Below, piece after piece: positions 5,745 through 56,937 of a stretch of DNA of 64,000 nucleotides. The position numbers and the translations under genes were made by a program. This stretch comes from Flammeovirgaceae bacterium SG7u.111 (GTDB lineage Bacteria > Bacteroidota > Bacteroidia > Cytophagales > Flammeovirgaceae). The notes under the pieces were generated by a model, which did not search any database, was not told the DNA's origin, and was given only the letters and a program-made list of their open reading frames with translations. Within the stretch, counting starts at the first letter, position 1, and the number at the start of each line of letters is the position of its first letter. The stretch lies in the NCBI GenBank assembly GCA_034044135.1, contig CP139021.1, forward strand, positions 5,533,635-5,597,634. The letters are read 5' to 3'.

Positions 5745-7841
5745 ATGTCCCGCAAACCAAAATGCCTTTTTACCCTCACATTTCTATTACTTCCGTTTTT
5801 TGTATTTGCCCAAGTAGAAAACTCTTTATCTGAGCAAATAAAAGCAAATCTGTACAAGCAATACCTTTCCCAATATTCTAATAAAAACGAGGTAGTCGAA
5901 CTTCTCAAAGCCCAGCAAGAAGACGGCTCTTGGCAAGAAGTTGATTATGCATCTAAAGCAAGAAGCGGATGGCCGGCAAGGCAACATCTCGAAAATTTGA
6001 AAATTTTGGCTACGGCCTACCAAACCCCAACCGACCGCCTTTTCAAATCTGAAATCTTATTGGAAAGCATCCAAAAAGCGTTAGACTTTTGGAACAAAAC
6101 CGAGCCTTTGAGCGACAACTGGTGGCAACAAGAAATAGGAGTTCCCATGGGTCTCAGCCCTATTCTAATCTTGATGGAAAAAGAACTTGACTCTGCCGAC
6201 ATGCAAGCATCTCTCAAAATAATGGACAAAGCCCAAATAAAAATGACGGGGCAAAACAAGGTCTGGCTCTCGGGAAATGTGCTAGTAAGAAGTACCTTGA
6301 GGGGTGATGATGAGCAAGTAAAAAAGGCGATAAACTCCATTCAGGAGGAAATAGTACTTTCTACCAAAGAAGGTATCCAACCTGATTTTTCCTTCCACCA
6401 ACACGGACCTCAACAGCAATTTGGCAATTATGGACTTTCTTACGCTTCTAGCACGCTCTTTTGGCTCCAAGTAACCCAAGGGACAGACTTTGAATTTGAA
6501 CAGGAAAAAATTGACATCCTGAAACATTATCTATTCGATGGAATAGCTTGGGTGGTATGGCATGAAAAAATGGATATCAGCGCCTGTGGAAGACAACTTT
6601 TCCCAAGTACTCCTTCGCACAAAGCTGAAAGTGCTTTGGCTTCGATCAAAGCTATGGAGAAAATAGTTGATGAAAGAAGTGTAATCGACAATGGGTTTGA
6701 GGGGAAGAAGTTTTTCTGGCGTTCGGATATGTTGGTAAGCCAAGATCCGCACTATTACTTTTCGGTAAAAATGTCTTCGGGGAGAGTGAGAGGCGCAGAA
6801 ACTGTGAACAGCGAAAACTTACAAGGTTACCACATGGGCGATGGCGCAAGCTTTTTGTATCAAAACAACGAAGAATACACCGATATTTTTCCACTATGGG
6901 ACTGGAGAAAAATCCCGGGAACAACCACCCTGCAACTGGAAGAAAAACTTCCAGTGCTAACCAGCAAAAATAGCTGGGGCGGGACTGACTTTGTAGGAGG
7001 CATTGCCACCGGCGAACACGCCATTGCCACTATGCACTACAAAAAAGATGGGTTAGAAGCCAAAAAGTCTTGGTTTGTGGTAGATGGGGAAACCGTTTGC
7101 CTAGGCACGGACATCAGCTCTTCCAAGCCAGAAACCGTAGCAACCACCATCCAACAAAGCTGGCTGAAAGATAACATCTTGGCAAGAATCAACGGTAAAA
7201 TCACAACATTGAATGAAGGAGGGCACACCTTTACAGAGATTGATTTCCTACGCCACGACAACGTAGTTTATGTATTTGAAGAAAACCCTAAAATTCAGCT
7301 CAGCAACGAAGAGGTAAGCGGAAGCTGGGACAAGGTAGCCCAAAAACTATCAGACAAACCAGTGAGAGGAAAGGTGTTTAAGCTTTGGATAGACCACGGC
7401 GCTAACCCTACTTCTGCCAGTTATGCTTATTATATTTTCCCAAGAATCAACTCCCAAGACTTTGAACAACTGCTGAGCAACAAGCCTGTGGAAATTGTGT
7501 ATAACTCGGGGGAAACCCAAGCTGTCGGAAATGAAAACATGCTGATGGCAGTGTACCACCAAGCTAGTTTGGCAAAGTTTGGTCGGGTACAGATAAAAGC
7601 GGAACAGCCTTGTGTAATGAGTGTGACTCGGCAAGGGGAAACTATATTTAACTTCGTAGCGAGCGACCCTACCCATAAGTTAGAATCACTAACTTTCACA
7701 TTGAAAGGCGCTTATCTTTCCAGTAATCCTAACCTAATGATCACGAATAAAGGAAGGAAGTCTACAACCGTGACTATCGACTTACCACAAGGAGGTGAAG
7801 CAGGGAAAGCGGTCTCTTTTTCACTTAGTAAAAAGCCTTGA
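5745..7841 (+). CDS. polysaccharide lyase family 8 (chondroitin/hyaluronan lyase-like)
   Basis: The 698-residue secreted protein has a signal peptide ending near FVFAQ (residue 23), an alpha/alpha-toroid half (about 25-370) and a beta-sandwich half (about 380-698), the PL8 layout. Catalytic residues can be placed: N178 (GNVLVRS), H220 (FHQHGPQQQ), Y229 (FGNYG) and R283 (CGRQLFP). The H-to-Y and Y-to-R spacings (9 and 54) equal those of chondroitin AC lyase (H225, Y234, R288) as I recall them. PL8 enzymes cleave uronic-acid polysaccharides (chondroitin, hyaluronan, xanthan) by beta-elimination. No SusC/SusD pair, sulfatase or unsaturated glucuronyl hydrolase is nearby, so it is not in a polysaccharide utilisation locus. 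There is no T9SS sorting domain; the exact substrate is uncertain. Confidence 0.88.
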   Translation: MSRKPKCLFTLTFLLLPFFVFAQVENSLSEQIKANLYKQYLSQYSNKNEVVELLKAQQEDGSWQEVDYASKARSGWPARQHLENLKILATAYQTPTDRLFKSEILLESIQKALDFWNKTEPLSDNWWQQEIGVPMGLSPILILMEKELDSADMQASLKIMDKAQIKMTGQNKVWLSGNVLVRSTLRGDDEQVKKAINSIQEEIVLSTKEGIQPDFSFHQHGPQQQFGNYGLSYASSTLFWLQVTQGTDFEFEQEKIDILKHYLFDGIAWVVWHEKMDISACGRQLFPSTPSHKAESALASIKAMEKIVDERSVIDNGFEGKKFFWRSDMLVSQDPHYYFSVKMSSGRVRGAETVNSENLQGYHMGDGASFLYQNNEEYTDIFPLWDWRKIPGTTTLQLEEKLPVLTSKNSWGGTDFVGGIATGEHAIATMHYKKDGLEAKKSWFVVDGETVCLGTDISSSKPETVATTIQQSWLKDNILARINGKITTLNEGGHTFTEIDFLRHDNVVYVFEENPKIQLSNEEVSGSWDKVAQKLSDKPVRGKVFKLWIDHGANPTSASYAYYIFPRINSQDFEQLLSNKPVEIVYNSGETQAVGNENMLMAVYHQASLAKFGRVQIKAEQPCVMSVTRQGETIFNFVASDPTHKLESLTFTLKGAYLSSNPNLMITNKGRKSTTVTIDLPQGGEAGKAVSFSLSKKP

Positions 7842-7949: not shown

Positions 7950-8225
7950 ATGATAAAATACACAAAAGGATTTTTGGTAAAGCTTGAGGACCTTGTGGGA
8001 GAAACAGAGTATATTTTACGCTACGAGAAAGGAAATTTCAAATCGGGCTATTGCGTGCTGAAAGACACCAAAATTGCCATCATCAATAAATTTTTCCCCC
8101 TCGAAGGGCGTATTAATTCTCTGCTCGAAATCATTAGGGAAATAGACTTTGAGCCTGAAGAGCTTTCTGAAAAAAGCCAAAAACTCTACAAGGATGTATT
8201 GGACGCTGGTGAGATTGAGGAATAA
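7950..8225 (+). CDS. small conserved hypothetical protein (91 aa)
   Basis: This 91-residue protein has no signal peptide or membrane helix. It has a beta-rich start (GFLVKLEDLVGETEYILRYEKGNFKSGYCVLKDTKIAIINKFF in outline) and an acidic helical end (residues 60-91). Similar short proteins occur in many Bacteroidota as far as I recall, but no function is known to me. A good promoter match lies just upstream and a separate promoter follows for the kinase gene at 8445, so it is probably monocistronic. Confidence 0.7.
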   Translation: MIKYTKGFLVKLEDLVGETEYILRYEKGNFKSGYCVLKDTKIAIINKFFPLEGRINSLLEIIREIDFEPEELSEKSQKLYKDVLDAGEIEE

Positions 8226-8362
8226 ATCAAACTGCTTACGTCAAATACCTAACCTTAAAGCTGAAAAATAGGTACGATACATTTCCCTCAAAATAGTTAT
8301 ATTTGTTAAGATTGTCCCAAACTTCTATTCCACAAGCCTGACTTACGCAAGCAATGCATCTG

Positions 8363-8393
8363 TTTGTCCAAACGGTGCATACCTTTACTTTTG
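8363..8393 (+). promoter_or_regulatory. Bacteroidota-type promoter for the hybrid kinase gene
   Basis: TTTG (8363-8366) and TACTTTTG (8386-8393) are 19 bases apart and fit the -33/-7 consensus of Bacteroidota promoters. The predicted start lies about 50 bases before the ATG at 8445. Confidence 0.55.
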
Positions 8394-8444
8394 TTTTTTT
8401 AGAGAAGAAATAACGCGATTCCTTATGAAAGGGAAACTGAGCCT

Positions 8445-10988
8445 ATGAAGTTTTTATTTAACAAGAAGAAAACTGACAACAAGCAGCCGAATGACGGGGA
8501 AATAAAAAGGAAAGTCATTCTGGGATTTGCCTCTGTGGGCGGTGCCGTAGCCATTGCGGTGCTGGTGACCTATGTAAGTTTTTCCCTTTTGCAAGATTCC
8601 GTAGAGCGCCTTGCCGAGCGGGATACTCGCTTACTGATGCTCAACAAAATAAGGGCGGACGTTGCCGATGCGGATAATATGATTCGGGAATATACACTCA
8701 ACCAAGACGACTCGGTTTACAAAACCTACCAGTCGACGGTTGATATGATTTATGTTGAAATAGACTCTTTAAAAAAGCACCCTGCAAATAATTTTAAGCA
8801 ACGTGTAAGAATAGACAGCATAGCTACCCTGCTCCGTACCGAATCGAAAGGCCTGGTTAATTTCATGAAAGAACGGAATTATGCCAAACTCAAAGATCCG
8901 CTCACGGCAGTGGTAAACAAATTGGAAAAAGAAAAAGAAAAACAGCTCATAAAAAGCTTAGCAAAAAAATCGCGTGCAGAAGAAATCCCCGACCTTGACC
9001 CAATTAGCCTTCCTCTGATTTACCGTAAATACCGCATTATAGCACTTAGGCTGTATGAAAAAGAGGACAAGCCCAAAATGGAAGTAGAGAGCGTTGAACG
9101 TATCCTCTCCAACGCACTCAAAAAAGAAGGAAACATCAATGCCTACATGACCCGCCGAGAGATCAACTTGCTGAGGCAAAGTGCGGGGTTGATGACCAAA
9201 ATCCAGCAAATTATCGACTCGCTACAAGATGAGGCACGGTTTACTGGCTACCAAAAAGCAAACGAAGCCAGGTCGGTGATCAAAACTTCTACCTATGCCC
9301 TTTTAGCTGTCACCGTACTGGCTTTGATCTGTGTGGGGATTTTCGTGTACCTCATTTTCTCCGATATCTCCAAAAGTGATTTTTACCAAAAAATGCTTAT
9401 TAAGGAGAAAAGGCGGGCTGAGTTTTTGAAAAATGCAAAGGAAGAATTTTTGGCAAACATGAGCCATGAAATTCGGACTCCGCTCAATGCACTCATGGGT
9501 TTTACCGAACAGTTTGCCTACACTCCGCTCAACGGTATGCAACAAGAATACCTTACAGCTGTCCGCAATTCTTCGGAGCATTTGCTGGCTACGGTAAACG
9601 ATATTTTGGACATGTCAAAAATTGAGGCTGGGAAACTCAACATGGAATCAGTTCCTTTCAGAGCTGATTTGGTAGTGAAAGAAGTCTGCGATGCCCTTAG
9701 CCTAAAGGCAAAAGAGAAAAACTTAGACCTCAAGTATTTTATGGGCGAAGGGACTAGCCAAATTCTATCAGGCGACCCTACTCGCTTGCGCCAAGTGCTT
9801 TTTAACCTGATCCAAAATGCGGTAAAATTTACGGAAGAAGGTTTTGTTGAAGTTGAATGCGAAATAGAAAAAGAAACGAAAAAAGAAGTGGCCCTAAAAA
9901 TCTATGTGAACGATACTGGCATCGGCATTCCTGCCGATAAGCAAAGTGCCATTTTTGAAGATTTCTCTCAAGCAGATTCTTCCATTTCCCGCAAATATGG
10001 CGGAACGGGCTTGGGCTTGGCAATTTGTAAAAAACTCCTCAAAATGCAAGATGGAGAAATATCTTTCGATAGCACCCCAGGAGAAGGTACTTCTTTCACC
10101 GTATCTATTTCTTATCCTAAATCGAGTGAAAAAGAGGTAAAAACCCACGAAAGGCCACAAGAGGTAAACGGAAGTCTGCTTTCAGGTAAACGCTTGTTGG
10201 TAGTGGACGATGACCCGTTAAACATGAGGCTCACCCAGATCATCCTCAACAAATGGGGAGTCATCACTGGAACTTCCCTCAATGGGCACGATGCCCTCCG
10301 AAAAATGACGGATAGTGAGTTCGACCTAGTACTCACCGACATGCAGATGCCTGAAATGAGTGGGCTAGACCTCACAAAAGCCATTCGCAAGCTGCAAGAC
10401 AAGCAAAAAGCAAATATCCCTGTGGTGGCCTTTACGGCGAATATGATGCGAGGTGACCTTGAAGAATATAAAAAAGCAGGTATCAACGACTTCTTACTCA
10501 AGCCTTTTAAGGAAGTAGAAATGTTTGAAAAACTAGCAAACGTGCTAGAAGTCGGTACCATAGAGGAGGTAAATTCCCACATTTCGAACACTAAAAAGCG
10601 ACTGGAAAAGCCAAAAGCTAAGAATGGGAAAAAGAATGGTGAAGCTAAGGCATACTCTTTGGACAATTTCAAAAAATTCACGGGAGATGACCCCGAAGCA
10701 CTAGCCGAGGTATTGTCTATTTTCTTATCTGACAACCAGCAAAACCTTAGTTCGTTCAAGAAAGCCGCACTGCAAAGCGATTGGAAAGAAGTTTCTTCCC
10801 TTTCCCATAAAATGCTGCACGCTTATGAAAACTTGCAAGTAAAACCTATGATCCCGCTTCTGAAAGATTTGGAGCTGATGGGGCTAGCGCCCAAAGGACA
10901 AGACGAAAGGAGATTAAAATCGACAGTTGACAAAGCGGTAAAAATAGCCGAGGATATCCATGGGAAAATAGAGAATGAGCTCGCTTAA
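8445..10988 (+). CDS. membrane hybrid sensor histidine kinase with receiver and HPt domains
   Basis: This 847-residue protein contains a full phosphorelay in one chain. A first membrane helix (about 23-50) and a second (about 280-306) bracket a helical periplasmic sensor region. HisKA follows with the phospho-acceptor H341 in MSHEIRTPLNA; the HATPase domain has NLIQNAVKFT (N box), DTGIGIP (G1) and GGTGLGLAI (G2). A receiver domain follows with D632 in LTDMQMPEMSG, then a C-terminal HPt domain with H788 in SLSHKMLHAYENL. The final output regulator is not encoded nearby, so signals must leave the HPt to a distant response regulator. The periplasmic ligand is unknown. A good promoter match lies upstream, and the gene has no neighbour in its transcription unit. 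Confidence 0.93.
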   Translation: MKFLFNKKKTDNKQPNDGEIKRKVILGFASVGGAVAIAVLVTYVSFSLLQDSVERLAERDTRLLMLNKIRADVADADNMIREYTLNQDDSVYKTYQSTVDMIYVEIDSLKKHPANNFKQRVRIDSIATLLRTESKGLVNFMKERNYAKLKDPLTAVVNKLEKEKEKQLIKSLAKKSRAEEIPDLDPISLPLIYRKYRIIALRLYEKEDKPKMEVESVERILSNALKKEGNINAYMTRREINLLRQSAGLMTKIQQIIDSLQDEARFTGYQKANEARSVIKTSTYALLAVTVLALICVGIFVYLIFSDISKSDFYQKMLIKEKRRAEFLKNAKEEFLANMSHEIRTPLNALMGFTEQFAYTPLNGMQQEYLTAVRNSSEHLLATVNDILDMSKIEAGKLNMESVPFRADLVVKEVCDALSLKAKEKNLDLKYFMGEGTSQILSGDPTRLRQVLFNLIQNAVKFTEEGFVEVECEIEKETKKEVALKIYVNDTGIGIPADKQSAIFEDFSQADSSISRKYGGTGLGLAICKKLLKMQDGEISFDSTPGEGTSFTVSISYPKSSEKEVKTHERPQEVNGSLLSGKRLLVVDDDPLNMRLTQIILNKWGVITGTSLNGHDALRKMTDSEFDLVLTDMQMPEMSGLDLTKAIRKLQDKQKANIPVVAFTANMMRGDLEEYKKAGINDFLLKPFKEVEMFEKLANVLEVGTIEEVNSHISNTKKRLEKPKAKNGKKNGEAKAYSLDNFKKFTGDDPEALAEVLSIFLSDNQQNLSSFKKAALQSDWKEVSSLSHKMLHAYENLQVKPMIPLLKDLELMGLAPKGQDERRLKSTVDKAVKIAEDIHGKIENELA

Positions 10989-49539: not shown

Positions 49540-49922
49540 CAACCAGCAAGAAACAATAAATGGCTCAACACACATCTGCCAGGGTCGGCAACCAGTCCGA
49601 CGAGAAAGTGAGAAGTTTGGTGAAAGCTTTCCTCAAACAAAGGAAGACAGCCGCGACCAAACACGAAATAGTGACGGAAACGGGGCTTTCGGTTTACGAC
49701 GTGGAAGATGCCCTGGAAGACTTCATAGGCACTTACCAGTGCGTGCTAAAAGCCGATGCAGACCACAACCTCTCCTACAAGTTCGACTTCTCGGATGTGG
49801 TGGGCAAAAAGGACTTTTGGAAAGAGGCTCAAAAGCTTGGAAAAAAGCTCGCCAAGTGGGCGTTTATGGGCTTTATCACCTTTATGCTCTTTTACAATGT
49901 GTTGGTTTATTTTCCTTATTTG
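49540..49922 (+). repeat. 383-bp shared block, copy A
   Basis: This block covers 20 bases of leader and the first 121 codons of the first array gene. It is nearly identical to 51421-51803 and 53302-53684, with only scattered substitutions and no indels seen. The three blocks are the same length. Sequence similarity falls sharply just beyond each. Confidence 0.85.
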
Positions 49923-51410
49923 ATAAGCATCGCACCGAAATTACTGCTTTTGCTGTTTTTTCTGGGCTTATTTTCAATGATTGCTTTTTACTTTTATGCT
50001 AAAAGTGAAAAAGAAGGTGGAAATAAAAATAGCCAAATAACCTTAGGCAGTCGTTTTCAAAAAGTTTACCGTTTCTTCGTTGGAAGGAGGATGTATTTCT
50101 ATTTAAGAGATAAAATCAATGTAAATGTATTCCAAACTATTTTCAGCTTTGCTTTTGGGGAAAACAAGCAAGAAAATGAAGTATTGGAAATGGAAAAAAG
50201 GGTATTGACGTATGTCAAAAACAATAATAATATACTTACGCTACCAGAACTAATAATGCTGACAGGATGGGATACCGATAAAGCTGACAAAGAAATCACC
50301 AAATTCATGTATCATTACGAAGGTAATGTTACAGTGAATGAAGATGGGGTTTTAATCTATCATTTTCCTCACTTAGAGTTGGAAGCAACCACATCTCAAG
50401 CAGAAATTTCCAACTTACTGATTTGGAATGATTTGACCCCACGGAAGGATTGGAACAACAATTACATCTATGAAAATGGCTTTATAACTGTACTGAATGC
50501 CTTTATATTATCAGCATCTGCAGCATTTATCATATCACCAGACAACGGAGAGTTCAATTTTTTATCTAAAAATATAAACATCCATTTTTTACCCTTGATT
50601 TTCTCCATTACCTTTTTCGCCATTTTCATTTATGGGAAGTGGAAATTCAAGAAAAATATGCTTGACAAGCTACAACGGAACAGGTATTATCTGTATCTCA
50701 AAAAAGTTTTTTCAAATCCTCTAGAAGTTGCCTTCAAAGAAAACTGCTCCTTTCAAGACAAAGCCTTCAACGAGCTAGATGCAACATTTGAGCATACTCC
50801 AGAAGGCAATGTTTATGCATCATTTCATGGAATTACAAATGAATTGGAAACAGTTGGCAATTTGGAGAAAGTTAAATCTTTAGCCCAATTTGATTTCAAG
50901 ACGCAAGTAGCCGAGAGCCCATTTACAAATATGGGTAAGTGGATTTTGAAAAAAACTAATTCAAATGGAATGACTTATATTCTGAAGGAAAGAGTCGATT
51001 TGTTTTCTCACATACGCTTAGTACTCTTTTTTGCAATCTTCTTAGCCTTTGTCACGCTTACCATCTATGTGGAAGGCTCCTGGGTAGTAGCAAGTACATT
51101 CCTACTTTACTCAGGTTTTCTTTTTCTCAAACAGGCTTCACAGTTTATTAATTCTACTATAGTTGATGTAAAAGAAACTACCCTCCGCACTAAAAGCAAA
51201 CCGTTTCCTTTTGCTTGGAATCAAACATTTGAATTAGCTCTTGTAGAAAATTTATATTGCCGAAAGAAAGCTCAGCAACATTTCCAATTAGCGGCAAACG
51301 TACATGGGCAAAAATTCACCAAAGTAATTGCTAAAGGAGAAAGTAATGAAACCCTACTCTGGGAAATAGCCACAGAAATAATGGAGTGGAAAGAAGAGCA
51401 TCAGGAATAG
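49560..51410 (+). CDS. membrane protein with two winged-helix segments, tandem copy 1
   Basis: The 616-residue protein has a winged-helix-like start (about 14-78, AATKHEIVTETGLSVYDVED followed by a wing LKADADHNLSYKF), then a helix pair (99-120, 124-148). A second winged-helix segment lies at about 207-275 (LTLPELIMLTGWDTDKADKE, DGVLIYHF). Further membrane helices lie near 307-330, 338-361 and 483-525, and the conserved end is EIATEIMEWKEEHQE. I recall similar dual winged-helix membrane proteins as conserved hypotheticals in many bacteria, with no function assigned. The first 121 residues differ from copies 2 and 3 at three positions each. A promoter-like pair precedes this copy, and the next copy begins 30 bases after its stop, suggesting an operon. 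Confidence 0.82.
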   Translation: MAQHTSARVGNQSDEKVRSLVKAFLKQRKTAATKHEIVTETGLSVYDVEDALEDFIGTYQCVLKADADHNLSYKFDFSDVVGKKDFWKEAQKLGKKLAKWAFMGFITFMLFYNVLVYFPYLISIAPKLLLLLFFLGLFSMIAFYFYAKSEKEGGNKNSQITLGSRFQKVYRFFVGRRMYFYLRDKINVNVFQTIFSFAFGENKQENEVLEMEKRVLTYVKNNNNILTLPELIMLTGWDTDKADKEITKFMYHYEGNVTVNEDGVLIYHFPHLELEATTSQAEISNLLIWNDLTPRKDWNNNYIYENGFITVLNAFILSASAAFIISPDNGEFNFLSKNINIHFLPLIFSITFFAIFIYGKWKFKKNMLDKLQRNRYYLYLKKVFSNPLEVAFKENCSFQDKAFNELDATFEHTPEGNVYASFHGITNELETVGNLEKVKSLAQFDFKTQVAESPFTNMGKWILKKTNSNGMTYILKERVDLFSHIRLVLFFAIFLAFVTLTIYVEGSWVVASTFLLYSGFLFLKQASQFINSTIVDVKETTLRTKSKPFPFAWNQTFELALVENLYCRKKAQQHFQLAANVHGQKFTKVIAKGESNETLLWEIATEIMEWKEEHQE

Positions 51411-51420
51411 TTTAATTAAC

Positions 51421-51803
51421 CAACCAGCAAGAAACAATAAATGGCTCAACACACATCTGCCAGGGTCGGCAACCAGTCCGACGAAAAAGTGAGAAGTTTG
51501 GTGAAAGCTTTCCTCAAACAAAGGAAGACAGCCGCGACCAAACACGAAATAGTGACGGAAACAGGGCTTTCGGTTTACGACGTGGAAGATGCCCTCGAAG
51601 ACTTCATTGGCACTTACCAATGCGTGCTAAAAGCCGATGCCGACCACAACCTCTCCTACAAGTTCGACTTTTCGGATGTGGTGGGGAAAAAGGACTTTTG
51701 GAAAGAGGCAAAAAAGCTTGGGAAAAAGCTCGCCAAGTGGGTGTTTATGGGCTTTATCACGTTTATGCTGTTTTACAATGCGTTGGTTTATTTTCCTTAT
51801 TTG
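51421..51803 (+). repeat. 383-bp shared block, copy B
   Basis: This is the second copy of the leader-plus-N-terminus block, starting 20 bases before the ATG at 51441. It begins just 11 bases past the stop of array copy 1. Similarity with block C continues about 20 bases further (GGTGGGAATAGG). Confidence 0.85.
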
Positions 51804-53291
51804 GTGGGAATAGGTCCTACCTTATACTGGTCATTTGTAAAGGGTATCGTACCTGTTATCCTAGCCTTGTTTATCTATGCTATTTTATACGATTACACTT
51901 CATTATTTGACAATATTAGCATCCTAGATAAGATCAAAAAGTTTTTTCTTGGAAAACGGGAATATATTTTCTCCTTCAATAAATTTAGACCGAACCTATT
52001 CAGAACAGTATTTGAGTTTGTTTTCGGAGAAAAAACCAACCAAGTTGATGACATATTAGCAGTAGAAAAAAGGGTATTGCAATACGTTCTTTCCAATAAC
52101 AAAAGGCTAACTGTCTCTGAACTTATTATGATTACAGGTTGGGATAGCCTTAAAGCAGACAAGGAAATCACCTTATTTATGCACCATTATCAGGGAAACA
52201 TTGAGGTCTCAGACAAGGGCGTACTCATTTATCATTTCCCGAATTTGAGTGCAGAAGACGCCTCCTTGCCATCAAATAAAACAGAGCAACTGTTTATTTG
52301 GAATAATTTGCTTGAGATAAAAGAATGGAATAAAAATTTCATGTTTGAAAACACAGTAATTATAGTTATAAACCTATTTATCTGCATTACTTCAGGTATA
52401 CTACTTACACTTCCAGAAGCCGAGGAATATCTCATTTTTTCAATTATCAATATTCATATTCTCCCTTTCATTTTCACGCTCTCTTTCTTTTTCGCCTCTA
52501 TCACAAATAAAATCAAATTCCAAAAAGAGAGGGCTCATAAAATAAAGAAAAACAGGTACTTCTTGTACTTGAAACAGATATTTTCTAACCCAGAAAAAGT
52601 AGCCTTTGAAGAAAAAAACCACCTCCAAGATACTGCCACAAACGATTTGGAAGCCATATACCACAACACACCTGATGGGGCTATACATCTGTCATTTCAG
52701 ACCATTATAGATGAACTAAGTACTGTGGATTCACTTGAAAAAATAAAGAAAAAGGCTTCTTTACCCCTCCTTTCTGAGAGCACAAATTCAAAGAGGGGAT
52801 ATGAAAAACTAGGTAAGAGAATTTATAAGAAGTCAAGCCCTGATGAACTAACATTTGTCTTTAAGAAAAGAGTTGAGATAGAAACTTATTTTCGAATCTT
52901 ATTCTTTTTGGTAATGACAACAGTTATTATATACGGTATAAGCACAACGTCGACACCTTTTTTTCTCTATTTTCCAATTTTAATATTTTTCCTACAAGGC
53001 TTCTTTAGAAATCTACAAACCTTTATTGCAGCAACCAAACTCACAATAAACAACAAGATTTGTACTATTAAATCTGGGCCAATCCCGTTCATAGGAACGA
53101 ATTGCACATGTTATTTATGGCAGCTAAACAGTGTGTTCTGTAAAATTGATCATGGAAAAACCCATCAATTGTTAGCTTCGACAGAACATAAAAGCTTTTA
53201 TCTGCCACTGATCAGAAGAGACGTTTCCAGAACCCTCCTCTGGGAAGTAGCAATCGAAATAATGGAGTGGAAAGAAGAGCATCAGGAGTAG
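51441..53291 (+). CDS. membrane protein with two winged-helix segments, tandem copy 2
   Basis: The 616-residue paralogue of copy 1 has the same layout. The first ~121 residues are almost unchanged (Q-to-K, A-to-V and V-to-A against copy 1). The middle has diverged but keeps the second winged helix (LTVSELIMITGWDSLKADKE, GVLIYHFP) and the segment KIKKNRYFLYLKQIFSNPE. The last residues again read EIMEWKEEHQE. Membrane helices occur near 100-150, 308-330, 340-362 and 485-525. The ATG lies 30 bases after the stop of copy 1 and its stop is 30 bases before copy 3, so the three are very likely co-transcribed. Function unknown. Confidence 0.82.
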   Translation: MAQHTSARVGNQSDEKVRSLVKAFLKQRKTAATKHEIVTETGLSVYDVEDALEDFIGTYQCVLKADADHNLSYKFDFSDVVGKKDFWKEAKKLGKKLAKWVFMGFITFMLFYNALVYFPYLVGIGPTLYWSFVKGIVPVILALFIYAILYDYTSLFDNISILDKIKKFFLGKREYIFSFNKFRPNLFRTVFEFVFGEKTNQVDDILAVEKRVLQYVLSNNKRLTVSELIMITGWDSLKADKEITLFMHHYQGNIEVSDKGVLIYHFPNLSAEDASLPSNKTEQLFIWNNLLEIKEWNKNFMFENTVIIVINLFICITSGILLTLPEAEEYLIFSIINIHILPFIFTLSFFFASITNKIKFQKERAHKIKKNRYFLYLKQIFSNPEKVAFEEKNHLQDTATNDLEAIYHNTPDGAIHLSFQTIIDELSTVDSLEKIKKKASLPLLSESTNSKRGYEKLGKRIYKKSSPDELTFVFKKRVEIETYFRILFFLVMTTVIIYGISTTSTPFFLYFPILIFFLQGFFRNLQTFIAATKLTINNKICTIKSGPIPFIGTNCTCYLWQLNSVFCKIDHGKTHQLLASTEHKSFYLPLIRRDVSRTLLWEVAIEIMEWKEEHQE

Positions 53292-53301
53292 TTTATTTAA
53301 T

Positions 53302-53684
53302 CAACCAGCAAGGAACAACAAATGGCTCAACACACATCTGCCAGGGTCGGCAACCAGTCCGACGAGAAAGTAAGAAGCTTGGTGAAAGCTTTCCTCAAAC
53401 AAAGGAAAACAGCCGCCACCAAACACGAAATAGTGACGGAAACGGGGCTTTCGGTTTACGACGTGGAAGATGCCCTGGAAGACTTCATTGGCACCTTCCA
53501 ATGTGTGCTAAAAGCCGACGCAGACCACAACCTCTCCTACAAGTTCGACTTTTCGGATGTGGTGGGGAAAAAGGACTTTTGGAAAGAGGCTCAAAAGCTT
53601 GGAAAAAAGCTCGCCAAGTGGGCATTTATGGGCTTTATCACCTTTATGCTGTTTTACAATGCGTTTGTTTATTTTCCTTATTTG
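53302..53684 (+). repeat. 383-bp shared block, copy C
   Basis: This is the third copy of the block, starting 20 bases before the ATG at 53322. It carries a few extra substitutions in the leader (AAGGAACAAC in place of AAGAAACAAT) but no length change. Confidence 0.85.
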
Positions 53685-55187
53685 GTGGGAATAGGACCTA
53701 CTCTTTTTTGGGTTTTGTCGGTAGTCCATCTTCCTATCTGGGTTCTACTTTTTATTTATGTGATTCTCGATGATAAAACCAATTTACTCAATAAGGGAAT
53801 TAAATTTAAGAAATCCGTTTTTCGGTTTTTTATGGGTAAGCGGAAATATGTTTATTCTATAGACAAATGGAATAAAAACATATTTCAAATAGTTTTTGAG
53901 TTTGTTTTCGGTGAAAAGGACTCTCAATCAGAAGTTGTTTTATCCGAAGAAAAGAAAGTATTAGAATACATAACCTTGAATGGAAATAGAATTACAGTTT
54001 CAGAGCTTGTAATGATTACAGGTTGGAATCTTCATAAAGCTGAACAAGAAATAACCCTTTTTATGTACCATTATGGAGGGAATGTGGAAGTAACTACAGA
54101 AGGAGTTCTTATTTATAACTTCCCTGACCTCCTGCCCGATTCTTCTGCCAAACCTGAAAAGGTGGAAAACCTTTATATCTGGAATAATTTACTACCAATA
54201 AAGGACTGGAATTCAAATTACATCTTTGTAAATGGTTTGATTGTTATAATCAATTCTTTTATCCTAATCACATCTACTTTTTTGATTTACTCTTCTGAAA
54301 GCGGTTCAATCCCATTTTTGCCTAATGAAGTAAATATACATTTGTTGCCTTTTTTATTCTCCTTATCCTTTTTTGCAGTATTTATTTATGGAAAAAGCAA
54401 GCATTTGAAGCGGAACGCTGACAAACTAGCCCAGAACCGCTTTTTTTTGTACCTAAAACAAGTATTTGCAAACCCTGAAAAAGTTGTGTTTGAAAAACAG
54501 AACCTTTTACAAGATTCTGTTACAACTATTTTCAATGCTACTTATGAAAACTCAGACGATGGGTCAATTCATATTTCATTCCAAAATATAATTGAAGAAT
54601 TAAATGCTATTGGTACTTTATCAAGAATCAAGAAGACGGCTGTTCTAGAAATAAACCGAGAGAAACATAAGCCAAAGGAAACATATGAGAAGTTAACTAA
54701 ACGTATTTTCAAACAGACAACTGCCGACAAATTAGTTTATGTATTTAGAAAAAAGGTTGATTTGTATGTTTATACGTACGTAATAGTATATTCTGTAATT
54801 GCCATCGCAAGTCTATATGCATTGGCATCATCCAATGTATCAACTGGCTTAAGAACACTATTCTTACTTCCTACTTTTGCTTATTGTAGTTATAGTGCCT
54901 TAAAACATTTTAGCTGCTTTACTAATTCAACAAGGCTAGAACTTACCAATAAATCTTGTACTGTAAAAAGTGGGCCAATACCCATTGGTCCAAATTCAAA
55001 ATGTTACTTAAATCAAATTGAGGGTGCTATAAGCAAGCCAGATATTGATTACCTACATCAACTTTTATTAAATACAGAAAACGAAAAGTTCTACATTCAG
55101 CTAGTTCGAAAAGAAGATTCTAGAAACCTAATGTGGGAAATAGCCACAGAAATAATGGAGTGGAAAGAAGAGCACCTAAATAACTAA
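53322..55187 (+). CDS. membrane protein with two winged-helix segments, tandem copy 3
   Basis: The 621-residue third paralogue has an N-terminus that differs from copy 1 by Y-to-F, V-to-A and L-to-F in the first 121 residues. Its middle is closer to copy 2 than to copy 1 by eye in places (the GIGPTL segment after the first helix; LKQVFANPEKVVFEKQNLLQD against LKQIFSNPEKVAFEEKNHLQD). The second winged helix (ITVSELVMITGWNLHKAEQE) is present. The end is MWEIATEIMEWKEEHLNN, so the shared 3' end breaks off after EEH. It is followed 91 bases later by a GT39-type gene on the same strand. No terminator was seen after it. Confidence 0.82.
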   Translation: MAQHTSARVGNQSDEKVRSLVKAFLKQRKTAATKHEIVTETGLSVYDVEDALEDFIGTFQCVLKADADHNLSYKFDFSDVVGKKDFWKEAQKLGKKLAKWAFMGFITFMLFYNAFVYFPYLVGIGPTLFWVLSVVHLPIWVLLFIYVILDDKTNLLNKGIKFKKSVFRFFMGKRKYVYSIDKWNKNIFQIVFEFVFGEKDSQSEVVLSEEKKVLEYITLNGNRITVSELVMITGWNLHKAEQEITLFMYHYGGNVEVTTEGVLIYNFPDLLPDSSAKPEKVENLYIWNNLLPIKDWNSNYIFVNGLIVIINSFILITSTFLIYSSESGSIPFLPNEVNIHLLPFLFSLSFFAVFIYGKSKHLKRNADKLAQNRFFLYLKQVFANPEKVVFEKQNLLQDSVTTIFNATYENSDDGSIHISFQNIIEELNAIGTLSRIKKTAVLEINREKHKPKETYEKLTKRIFKQTTADKLVYVFRKKVDLYVYTYVIVYSVIAIASLYALASSNVSTGLRTLFLLPTFAYCSYSALKHFSCFTNSTRLELTNKSCTVKSGPIPIGPNSKCYLNQIEGAISKPDIDYLHQLLLNTENEKFYIQLVRKEDSRNLMWEIATEIMEWKEEHLNN

Positions 55188-55278
55188 GCGCTGGCAACGC
55201 TCCTTAGCCGAATATCTCTTAATTTTGCAGCTGATTTTTATTAACAGGAAACTTCGAGCTACGCTAGAAATTAAAGAC

Positions 55279-56937
55279 ATGAGTAAAAAAGTAATTTTAT
55301 TGCTTTCTATTGTTGTCGTTGTCATCAATGCAACCAGCCTAACAAATGAAGTATTCACATCAGATTCAGCACTTTATGCATCCATCGCCAAGTCTTTCAG
55401 TGCTTCAGGCAACTACTTGGATATTATTGTGCTAGAAAGAGATTGGCTAGATAAACCCCATTTCCCTTATTGGTTATGTGCGCTCTCCATCAATATTTTT
55501 GGGGCAAATGCTTTTGCCTACAAACTCCCATCTATCTTACTTTTCTTGGTTTCCTTGTTCTACACCTTCAAGCTTGCCGAGAAAATCTACAATAAGGAAA
55601 CGGGGTATTTAGCTGCAATTATTCTTGGGTCTTCTCTGCATATAATCATCTCGAATAACGATGTGCGAGCCGAGGCCATTCTGATGGGGCTGATCATGGG
55701 CGCTATCTACCACATGTACAAGCTCACCCAGCGGTTTTCATTTGCCGATCTGGTGCTCACGTCACTATTTAGTGGCACTGCCATCATGACCAAGGGGCTG
55801 TTCATCCTCATTATTATCTATTCCGCCATTTTCGGGAATATGATTTTGAAAGGGCAATTCAAGGAAATGCTAAAATTCAGGTGGATTTTTGTACTCCTCC
55901 TCACGTTTGTCTTCATTTTTCCAGAGCTGTACGCTGTTTACACCCAGTTTGACCTCCACCCCGAAAAAGTGGTTTTTGGCAGAACAGGAGTTTCCGGCTT
56001 GAAATTTTTCGTTTGGGATAGCCAATTTGGAAGGTTTTTCAACACAGGTCCTATCAAAGGGTCGGGAGATCCTTTTTTCTTTTTCCATACCATGCTCTGG
56101 GCCTACGCACCTTGGGTTTTTATAGGCTTTACCGCTTTGTTTATCTATGTAAAAGAGCTATTCAAGCGTAAAAAAGACCAAGATTACCTTACCCTCCTTG
56201 GCTTTTCTATCATGTTCGTCATCTTTTCCGCATCAAAATTTCAACTACCTCATTACCTGAATATTATATATCCTTTTATATCCATTTTAACAGCATCTGT
56301 ATTGCTGCAAAAAGGCAATAAAAATCCCATTAAGAAGATTACAAACATTTCCCTAAACCTATATGCGGTTGTCTATATTTTAATGATTGCTTTGTTAGAA
56401 TATTTCTTTCGAACCGACTACCCCGTCATCGGAATTACGCTATGTATAGTACTTACTGGGGTCATCATTTTTTTCAACGTCACCAAAAAATATGGAGAAG
56501 GGAAGCCTATCATTTTTGCAGTTCTTGGAGTTGCTATATTTGCCATCTTCCTCAATTTCAGCTTTTACCCAAGCCTGTTCAAGTACCAATCAGGCGTTTT
56601 CATGGCTGATTTTGCCAACGAAAACTATCCCAAAGAACCCATCATAGTCACCCACAACGAAGGGCTGATGGAATACTATTCTGAAAATAAGCTGATCCAT
56701 TTGGATAGCCTTGGCAGCGTAGATGAAGCTATTCAAAAAATATCAACTTTTAATAAAGTGCTTCTTTATACGGATAAAGAATTGATGGATGAATTCACCG
56801 AAAAAGGACTGAAATACAACATCATACAAGAATACGAGCATTATCATATCACCACGCTAACCAAAGAGTTCATCTTCTACAAAACAAGACCAGAAGAACT
56901 AAAAACAAGATATTTGATGGAAGTGTGGGTAGAGTAA
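55279..56937 (+). CDS. GT39/ArnT-like membrane glycosyltransferase
   Basis: The 552-residue multi-pass membrane protein resembles the PMT_2/ArnT family (GT39/GT83). TSDSALYASIAKSF (about 27-40) carries the acidic catalytic-loop motif, DWLDKPHFPYWLCALSINIFG follows, and NDVRAEAILMGLIMGAIYHMYK lies in the third helix region. Such enzymes move sugar from a polyprenyl-phosphate donor to lipid A, protein or glycan in the periplasm. The acceptor here is unknown. I chose ATG 55279 (MSKKVILLLSI), because an earlier in-frame ATG at 55225 adds 18 residues that do not fit the family start. It converges with the WG-repeat gene, with 19 bases between stops. Confidence 0.87.
   Translation: MSKKVILLLSIVVVVINATSLTNEVFTSDSALYASIAKSFSASGNYLDIIVLERDWLDKPHFPYWLCALSINIFGANAFAYKLPSILLFLVSLFYTFKLAEKIYNKETGYLAAIILGSSLHIIISNNDVRAEAILMGLIMGAIYHMYKLTQRFSFADLVLTSLFSGTAIMTKGLFILIIIYSAIFGNMILKGQFKEMLKFRWIFVLLLTFVFIFPELYAVYTQFDLHPEKVVFGRTGVSGLKFFVWDSQFGRFFNTGPIKGSGDPFFFFHTMLWAYAPWVFIGFTALFIYVKELFKRKKDQDYLTLLGFSIMFVIFSASKFQLPHYLNIIYPFISILTASVLLQKGNKNPIKKITNISLNLYAVVYILMIALLEYFFRTDYPVIGITLCIVLTGVIIFFNVTKKYGEGKPIIFAVLGVAIFAIFLNFSFYPSLFKYQSGVFMADFANENYPKEPIIVTHNEGLMEYYSENKLIHLDSLGSVDEAIQKISTFNKVLLYTDKELMDEFTEKGLKYNIIQEYEHYHITTLTKEFIFYKTRPEELKTRYLMEVWVE

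Follow-up and report, generated by a model that had tools for sequence, protein, structure and literature searches.

Arrays of adjacent paralogues with alike ends and a divergent middle are known from Helicobacter pylori, where babA, babB and babC have, according to the accessible part of one report, near-identical N- and C-terminal regions, a divergent middle and gene conversion between paralogues (PMC4552749). Long-lasting concerted evolution, in which paralogues of one prokaryotic genome are kept alike, is described in the available portion of another source for 26 genes, most of them in important pathways (PMC6053082). The GC preference of bacterial recombination is disputed: the available text of PMC4450053 finds recombining sequence GC-richer, independent of optimal codons, while that of PMC8153448 states that GC-biased conversion is not observed in bacteria, with none in Caulobacter vibrioides. 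Here, we describe a comparable locus in a 64-kb window (the whole stretch of DNA analysed, 64,000 nucleotides of contig CP139021.1) of the 7.7-Mb, two-contig genome of Flammeovirgaceae bacterium SG7u.111. It is a tandem array of three genes, A, B and C, whose shared ends very probably evolve in concert by gene conversion, and it carries a step in silent-site GC at the border of the shared segment. In contrast to the Bab loci, which encode outer-membrane adhesins and carry phase-variable CT repeats, the array encodes adjacent predicted winged-helix membrane proteins, modelled with helical membrane segments and winged helices and not as outer-membrane adhesins. Its likeness is restricted to gene segments, unlike the 26 concertedly evolving genes, and its GC contrast lies within single genes at a defined border, whereas PMC4450053 compares entire families of genes across related genomes. 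Silent sites taken as converted and unconverted adjoin within each gene of the array, and 82 homologues serve as controls. Among the titles and abstract openings listed by our literature searches, none concerned GC-biased conversion in bacterial tandem paralogues. The nearest were, by their listings, two mycobacterial studies (PMC1762029, PMC13061034).

The array and its shared segments, in positions of the window, are as follows.

49560..51410, forward strand: gene A, 616 amino acids
51441..53291, forward strand: gene B, 616 amino acids
53322..55187, forward strand: gene C, 621 amino acids
49540..49922, forward strand: homogenised 5' block of A (winged helix 1, linker and first membrane helix); GC content at third codon positions (GC3) of codons 1-121, 0.62
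51421..51803, forward strand: homogenised 5' block of B; GC3 0.60; likeness to C extends to about codon 127
53302..53684, forward strand: homogenised 5' block of C; GC3 0.59
51375..51440, forward strand: shared 3' end of A (EIMEWKEEHQE, stop) and 30-base spacer, running into the block of B
53256..53321, forward strand: shared 3' end of B and 30-base spacer, running into the block of C
55149..55187, forward strand: shared 3' end of C (EIMEWKEEH, then LNN, stop)

A preliminary description had reported three genes, 30 bases apart, with near-identical 383-bp starts, and the coordinates and spacers were all verified; the block of A is 96% identical to the copy in B and 95% identical to that in C. 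Its near-identical 3' end of about 13 codons proved shorter: nine residues (EIMEWKEEH) are common to all three proteins and eleven (EIMEWKEEHQE) to A and B. Because these last 9-11 codons and the two 30-base spacers are alike as well, each inter-gene junction forms one unbroken similar stretch of 3' end, spacer and next 5' block. The likeness begins about 20 bases upstream of the ATG of A and ends near the stop codon of C. Inside the genes, the block border lies at about codon 121 for A, and B and C remain alike until about codon 127. The suggested search for further 383-bp blocks returned these three copies and no other in the 7.7-Mb genome. Furthermore, searches of the host genome with a full-length protein and with a profile of the family retrieved A, B and C alone.

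To describe divergence along the genes, Nei-Gojobori proportions of synonymous differences (pS) and synonymous (dS) and nonsynonymous (dN) distances were computed segment by segment for the three genes. Over codons 1-121 pS was 0.16-0.20, dS 0.18-0.23 and dN 0.010-0.014, and 21 of the 25 variable sites were third positions. In the four middle segments pS was 0.72-0.89 and dN 0.34-0.95, with dS of about 2.4 or more, or beyond estimation (saturated); pS fell again to 0.15-0.53 in the last 21 codons. The diverged middle and the uneven divergence noted earlier are therefore borne out. Since silent divergence is low in the block and saturated in the middle, the ends are best read as homogenised, as had been proposed; silent sites much more alike in one shared segment than elsewhere are the mark of concerted evolution. 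The tree of the cores groups A, B and C together (support 100/98), the relatives at the shortest path distance being L260 and L261. The cores look like old paralogues of this lineage, because the three genes unite on their diverged parts. The block needs both strong purifying selection on its protein and homogenisation of its DNA, and the copying would have been by gene conversion rather than by unequal crossing-over.

The other proposal of the preliminary description, diversifying selection on the centre as in recognition or conflict proteins, with the ends passively conserved, is very improbable. Core protein divergence is indeed large, full-length identity being 57% for B-C, 51% for A-C and 50% for A-B. 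But passive protein conservation cannot keep silent sites at a dS of 0.2, and core dN/dS was below 0.4 in the four pair-segments with estimable dS. Saturation of silent sites rules out a reliable dN/dS for the core as a whole, the sign being that of purifying selection. The second winged helix of C is 56-61% identical to those of A and B. The defence library (PADLOC) gave just weak matches, of C to SspB (E 0.00075) and of B to Cas12b (E 0.015), which we judged to be chance because each occurs in one copy alone.

The preliminary description had overlooked the GC step. From the block values given above, GC3 falls to 0.345, 0.364 and 0.284 in the remainder of A, B and C, and GC at four-fold sites falls from 0.67-0.71 to 0.20-0.36. 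A one-change maximum-likelihood model placed the step at codons 115, 115 and 114 of A, B and C (2-unit support intervals, codons 104-137, 104-123 and 106-117), and 0 of 500 permutations matched it in each gene. For the block, the three genes do not count as separate lines of evidence, because it has been copied among them; their cores are independent. For comparison, 88 homologue rows, in which some genes appeared twice, were reduced to 82 by removing duplicates and adding three near relatives. Steps in these 82 had a mean of -0.003 (sd 0.066, maximum 0.167), and none reached that of the array. A second control comprised 995 genes of at least 300 codons in 2.46 Mb of the host genome, A, B and C included. 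The smallest step of the array was equalled at the gene start by one of the 992 others, gene 5128070, which we take to be a YD-repeat (Rhs-like) gene; close to it lie two almost identical genes that we read as transposase-like. The GC excess stops at the segment border and is not shared by the spacers; homologues without the array lack an excess of this size. Highly expressed genes recognised by motif (EF-Tu, AtpA, DnaK, RpoB and RecA) had a GC3 of 0.30-0.40 (EF-Tu 0.32, DnaK 0.35); the motif search gave six candidates, and a 690-aa match to the ribosomal S7 motif, apparently spurious, was left out of this range. Translational selection would push the opposite way, because such genes are GC3-poor.

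A GC-rich 5' block acquired once by horizontal transfer or recombination and then spread over the three genes would leave a step that records its donor. The block GC3 of about 0.6 lies above that of five neighbouring genes (0.41-0.51) and above the mean of 3408 genome segments (0.416), and GC at first codon positions is also raised (0.49-0.50 in the block versus 0.38-0.41 in the remainder). Against such an import, the block protein was matched in 17 of the 390 genomes of the order, the host included, with no donor among them and a best identity of 35% outside the host genome. Of the earlier alternative of gene conversion or module exchange, homogenisation stands, and exchange from outside found no donor in these genomes. 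In addition, the block is about as distant from the three nearest relatives (26-29% identity) as core residues 271-420 are (23-28%), though winged helix 2 is nearer (39-51%). Third-position singletons in the block, a small and unpolarised set, comprised 7 GC-to-AT and 7 AT-to-GC changes, with no sign of decay. Taken as transfers in the two directions, the same singletons give p 0.038 against an assumed 3:1. We regard a foreign block as rather unlikely, though a serious contender.

Silent-site constraint without conversion, with third positions frozen and GC3 lifted by RNA structure, by regulatory DNA or by a gene in an overlapping frame, is highly unlikely. The +2 frame is stop-free through the block in all three genes (49560-49922, 51441-51803 and 53322-53684; P 0.0003-0.0017 in synonymous shuffles). 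Yet it is also open in 3 of 155 comparable genome segments, and +2 stops were depleted generally over 509 segments of like GC3 (observed/expected 0.71). The frame is open in just 2 of 78 homologues, the three nearest relatives carrying 5-9 stops; 20 of the 25 variable sites alter the alternative protein, and the start codons listed for the frame differ among the copies. An overlapping +2 gene, neither rare enough, conserved nor constrained, was therefore rejected, and the open frame is probably due to chance and high GC3. RNA structure was likewise rejected, the folding z-scores of the block being -1.7 to 0.5.

GC3 was also compared across other duplicated DNA of the genome. In 93 other genes with partly paralogous DNA, the paralogous part had a mean GC3 excess of +0.033 (61/93 positive and p 0.0012, with 0.000 in the shifted control). 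When these genes were grouped into 34 families, which include the second array described below, the mean excess was +0.044 (25/34 positive, p 0.0022). Conserved domains could, for other reasons, show such an excess. For single genes ranked by best identity, the excess was 0.020 below 75% (64 genes), 0.059 at 75-85% (26) and 0.098 above 85% (3). The correlation of identity with GC3 in windows along gene pairs was -0.055 (se 0.012) in 939 distant pairs, and at 40% identity or more it was 0.208 (se 0.116, 10 pairs) for tandem versus 0.028 (se 0.045, 72) for distant pairs. A second array at G000:C1:5038600-5043518 contains four adjacent genes whose N-terminal parts differ and whose C-terminal tail is common (77-84% DNA identity). 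Its tail has a GC3 of 0.51-0.61 versus 0.30-0.39 in the remainder (0.29 in one gene), and it replicates the GC step only partly.

Several observations weigh against GC-biased conversion as the source of the step. The 30-base spacers are AT-rich despite their likeness. In the second array, codons 209-268, upstream of the tail, are 100% identical in two neighbours at a GC3 of just 0.17-0.20, and in 31 other tandem pairs the window correlation of identity with GC3 is weak (0.077, se 0.07). The GC island is rare though not unique: 11 of the 992 other genes contain a 121-codon GC3 island of such size anywhere in the gene. Some of these are YD-repeat or second-array members and others are genes without known recombination; those looked at are, we assume, YD-repeat genes, second-array members and, in a few cases, large proteins of surface or other type. 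A moderate step (+0.13) is present in L261, where no array was seen. Conversion is itself deduced from patterns of likeness, its changes are unpolarised, and import of a GC-rich foreign block would give the same look. Sister strains would let the direction of the bias be counted directly.

On balance, we consider the following explanation, taken as a whole, the probable one. A, B and C would be tandem copies of old date that probably form an operon. Because direct repeats lie next to each other there, recombination would repeatedly copy the junction (3' end, spacer and first ~121-127 codons) among the copies. The junction, which encodes winged helix 1 together with the first membrane helix, would stay homogenised, and strong purifying selection would act on its protein, as the cores move apart. 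Conversion would probably be GC-biased and raise silent-site GC inside the homogenised coding stretch. GC bias as the cause of the step is the less secure part of this account, which we place slightly on the doubtful side. We propose only tentatively that the array is a natural within-gene case of GC-biased conversion, with silent GC raised from ~0.33 to 0.60 in the tract against codon selection; that this case extends to the weaker genome-wide trend of the same sign is offered with equal reserve.

Two further features had escaped the preliminary description, namely that A, B and C belong to a winged-helix membrane family of ~480 aa that is widespread and uncurated, and that the C-terminal domain of C has a predicted EROS-like fold. 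The array outlines both the family and a bacterial protein with such a predicted domain. Family members share, in register, a winged helix, a transmembrane segment, an F-V-F-G motif (F-A-F-G in A), a second winged helix and a transmembrane pair (alignments A1 and A3, and the model). Neither Pfam nor NCBIfam gave a match above cut-off for A, B or C, and a search of solved-structure sequences with A1 gave EutK as its best match (E 0.091). The AlphaFold2 model of C (mean predicted local distance difference test, pLDDT, 75.9) contains the second winged helix and the membrane helices noted earlier. It runs from winged helix 1 through a long helix, which includes the first membrane segment, to winged helix 2 and a helical hairpin; by strand and helix order, we read a putative third winged-helix-like unit in it. 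The domains are placed as follows.

53355..53570, forward strand: winged helix 1 of C (model residues 12-83); one residue differs from A and B
53877..54131, forward strand: winged helix 2 of C (residues 186-270), the most conserved piece of the diverged core
50916..51407, forward strand: C-terminal domain of A, by alignment to the domain of C
52791..53288, forward strand: C-terminal domain of B, by alignment to the domain of C
54675..55184, forward strand: C-terminal domain of C, EROS-like in the model, with two strands followed by a membrane hairpin, six strands and a helix

Winged helix 1 of C matched Zalpha, MarR-like and Fur-like domains (VIA Z 9-10). The C-terminal 170 residues of C were modelled alone from an alignment of three rows (pLDDT 79.2). 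Chain D of PDB 8kei was the top Foldseek match of this tail and the sole one below E 0.001 (E 2.5e-5, TM score 0.53/0.54). In VIA it took second place (Z 10.4, root-mean-square deviation 4.7, 146 residues aligned), tied with the CCM2 PTB domain (Z 10.6), which aligned over just 93 residues. We infer from its fold that chain D is EROS, the structure table naming the complex alone. The match of the tail to this chain, taken as EROS/CYBC1, a relative of Ycf4, spans the whole domain with its membrane hairpin, and a membrane hairpin inside a PH-like domain, as in EROS and Ycf4, is present in the predicted models. The tail differs from EROS in showing just 12-13% identity and no match to a Pfam family of that kind and in being fused to a winged-helix membrane protein. 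No EROS/Ycf4 family was listed for the three tails in Pfam (hmmscan to E 10), and Foldseek with the whole C model gave nothing under E 0.03, 8kei not being among the best 50 rows. The accessible parts of two sources describe EROS as a chaperone that serves NADPH oxidase 2 and as related to Ycf4 (PMC13296129, PMC5379978), and a literature search on EROS with PH-domain or cryo-EM found nothing. Likeness of fold to EROS shows no function. A, B and C might be membrane-anchored winged-helix scaffolds with a common N-terminal interface, whose diverged cores and EROS-like tails would handle different membrane partners; this shared-interface role is a speculative suggestion that we think unlikely as it stands.

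Relatives were sought by scanning named genome contigs with two short conserved patterns, a scan that is not exhaustive. At least 72 loci were found in Bacteroidota, Ignavibacteria, Calditrichota, KSB1, Acidobacteria and others. With 11 from an even sample of the phylum, in which 11 of 395 genomes matched (the host included), 83 loci were examined, and the gene is an open frame in 82. Two matches occurred in four of the 83 and were read as fragments of one gene, although the short flanks would miss distant second copies. Within the host's family, 7 of 18 genomes matched, the host included, and the other 11 (nine in genus g2) gave no match at E 1e-6. No adjacent array was seen in the 17 other family genomes, and no other genome of the genus was among the relatives. 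A tandem pair with alike N-termini is present in two genomes of one genus (G448 and G495), with 79% DNA identity over the first 79 codons, 46-51% protein identity in the remainder, and a GC3 of 0.48 versus 0.34. This difference falls in the upper tail of the homologues and is suggestive only. The pair has had no recent conversion, because its orthologues (97-99% DNA identity) are far closer than its paralogues. A mobile or viral origin was rejected: a single-protein scan found no relative of C on viral contigs, and a blastn search with the DNA of A matched no plasmid. A genome-contig scan with C alone as query likewise returned no relative.

Some individual loci deserve mention. In L258 and L259 (positions 1-1842), a family tandem pair from two genomes of one genus, GC3 of the first copy drops near codon 120. 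A 724-aa relative in genome G002 (L031, 3658-5832) continues at its C terminus into membrane helices of its own and, in our reading, a possible PH-like domain; its gene is present near both ends of one contig, perhaps the redundant ends of a circle. At L118, a family member is split into 5992-7026 and 8081-8590 by ~1 kb, possibly an insertion. In the host genome, the YD-repeat region (G000:C1:5045836-5129995), whose genes are presumably Rhs-like and which we take to hold near-identical transposase-like copies at 5123373 and 5126814, shows strong GC3 islands within genes. At the array itself, the 30-base spacers make an operon likely. Promoter-like sites were not in excess (19 versus a chance mean of 22.7), and terminator-like sites numbered 12 versus a mean of 6.1 (sd 2.9). 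A PMT_2-type glycosyltransferase gene (Pfam; 55225-56937) follows on the same strand, 37 bases past C, and may share its transcript.

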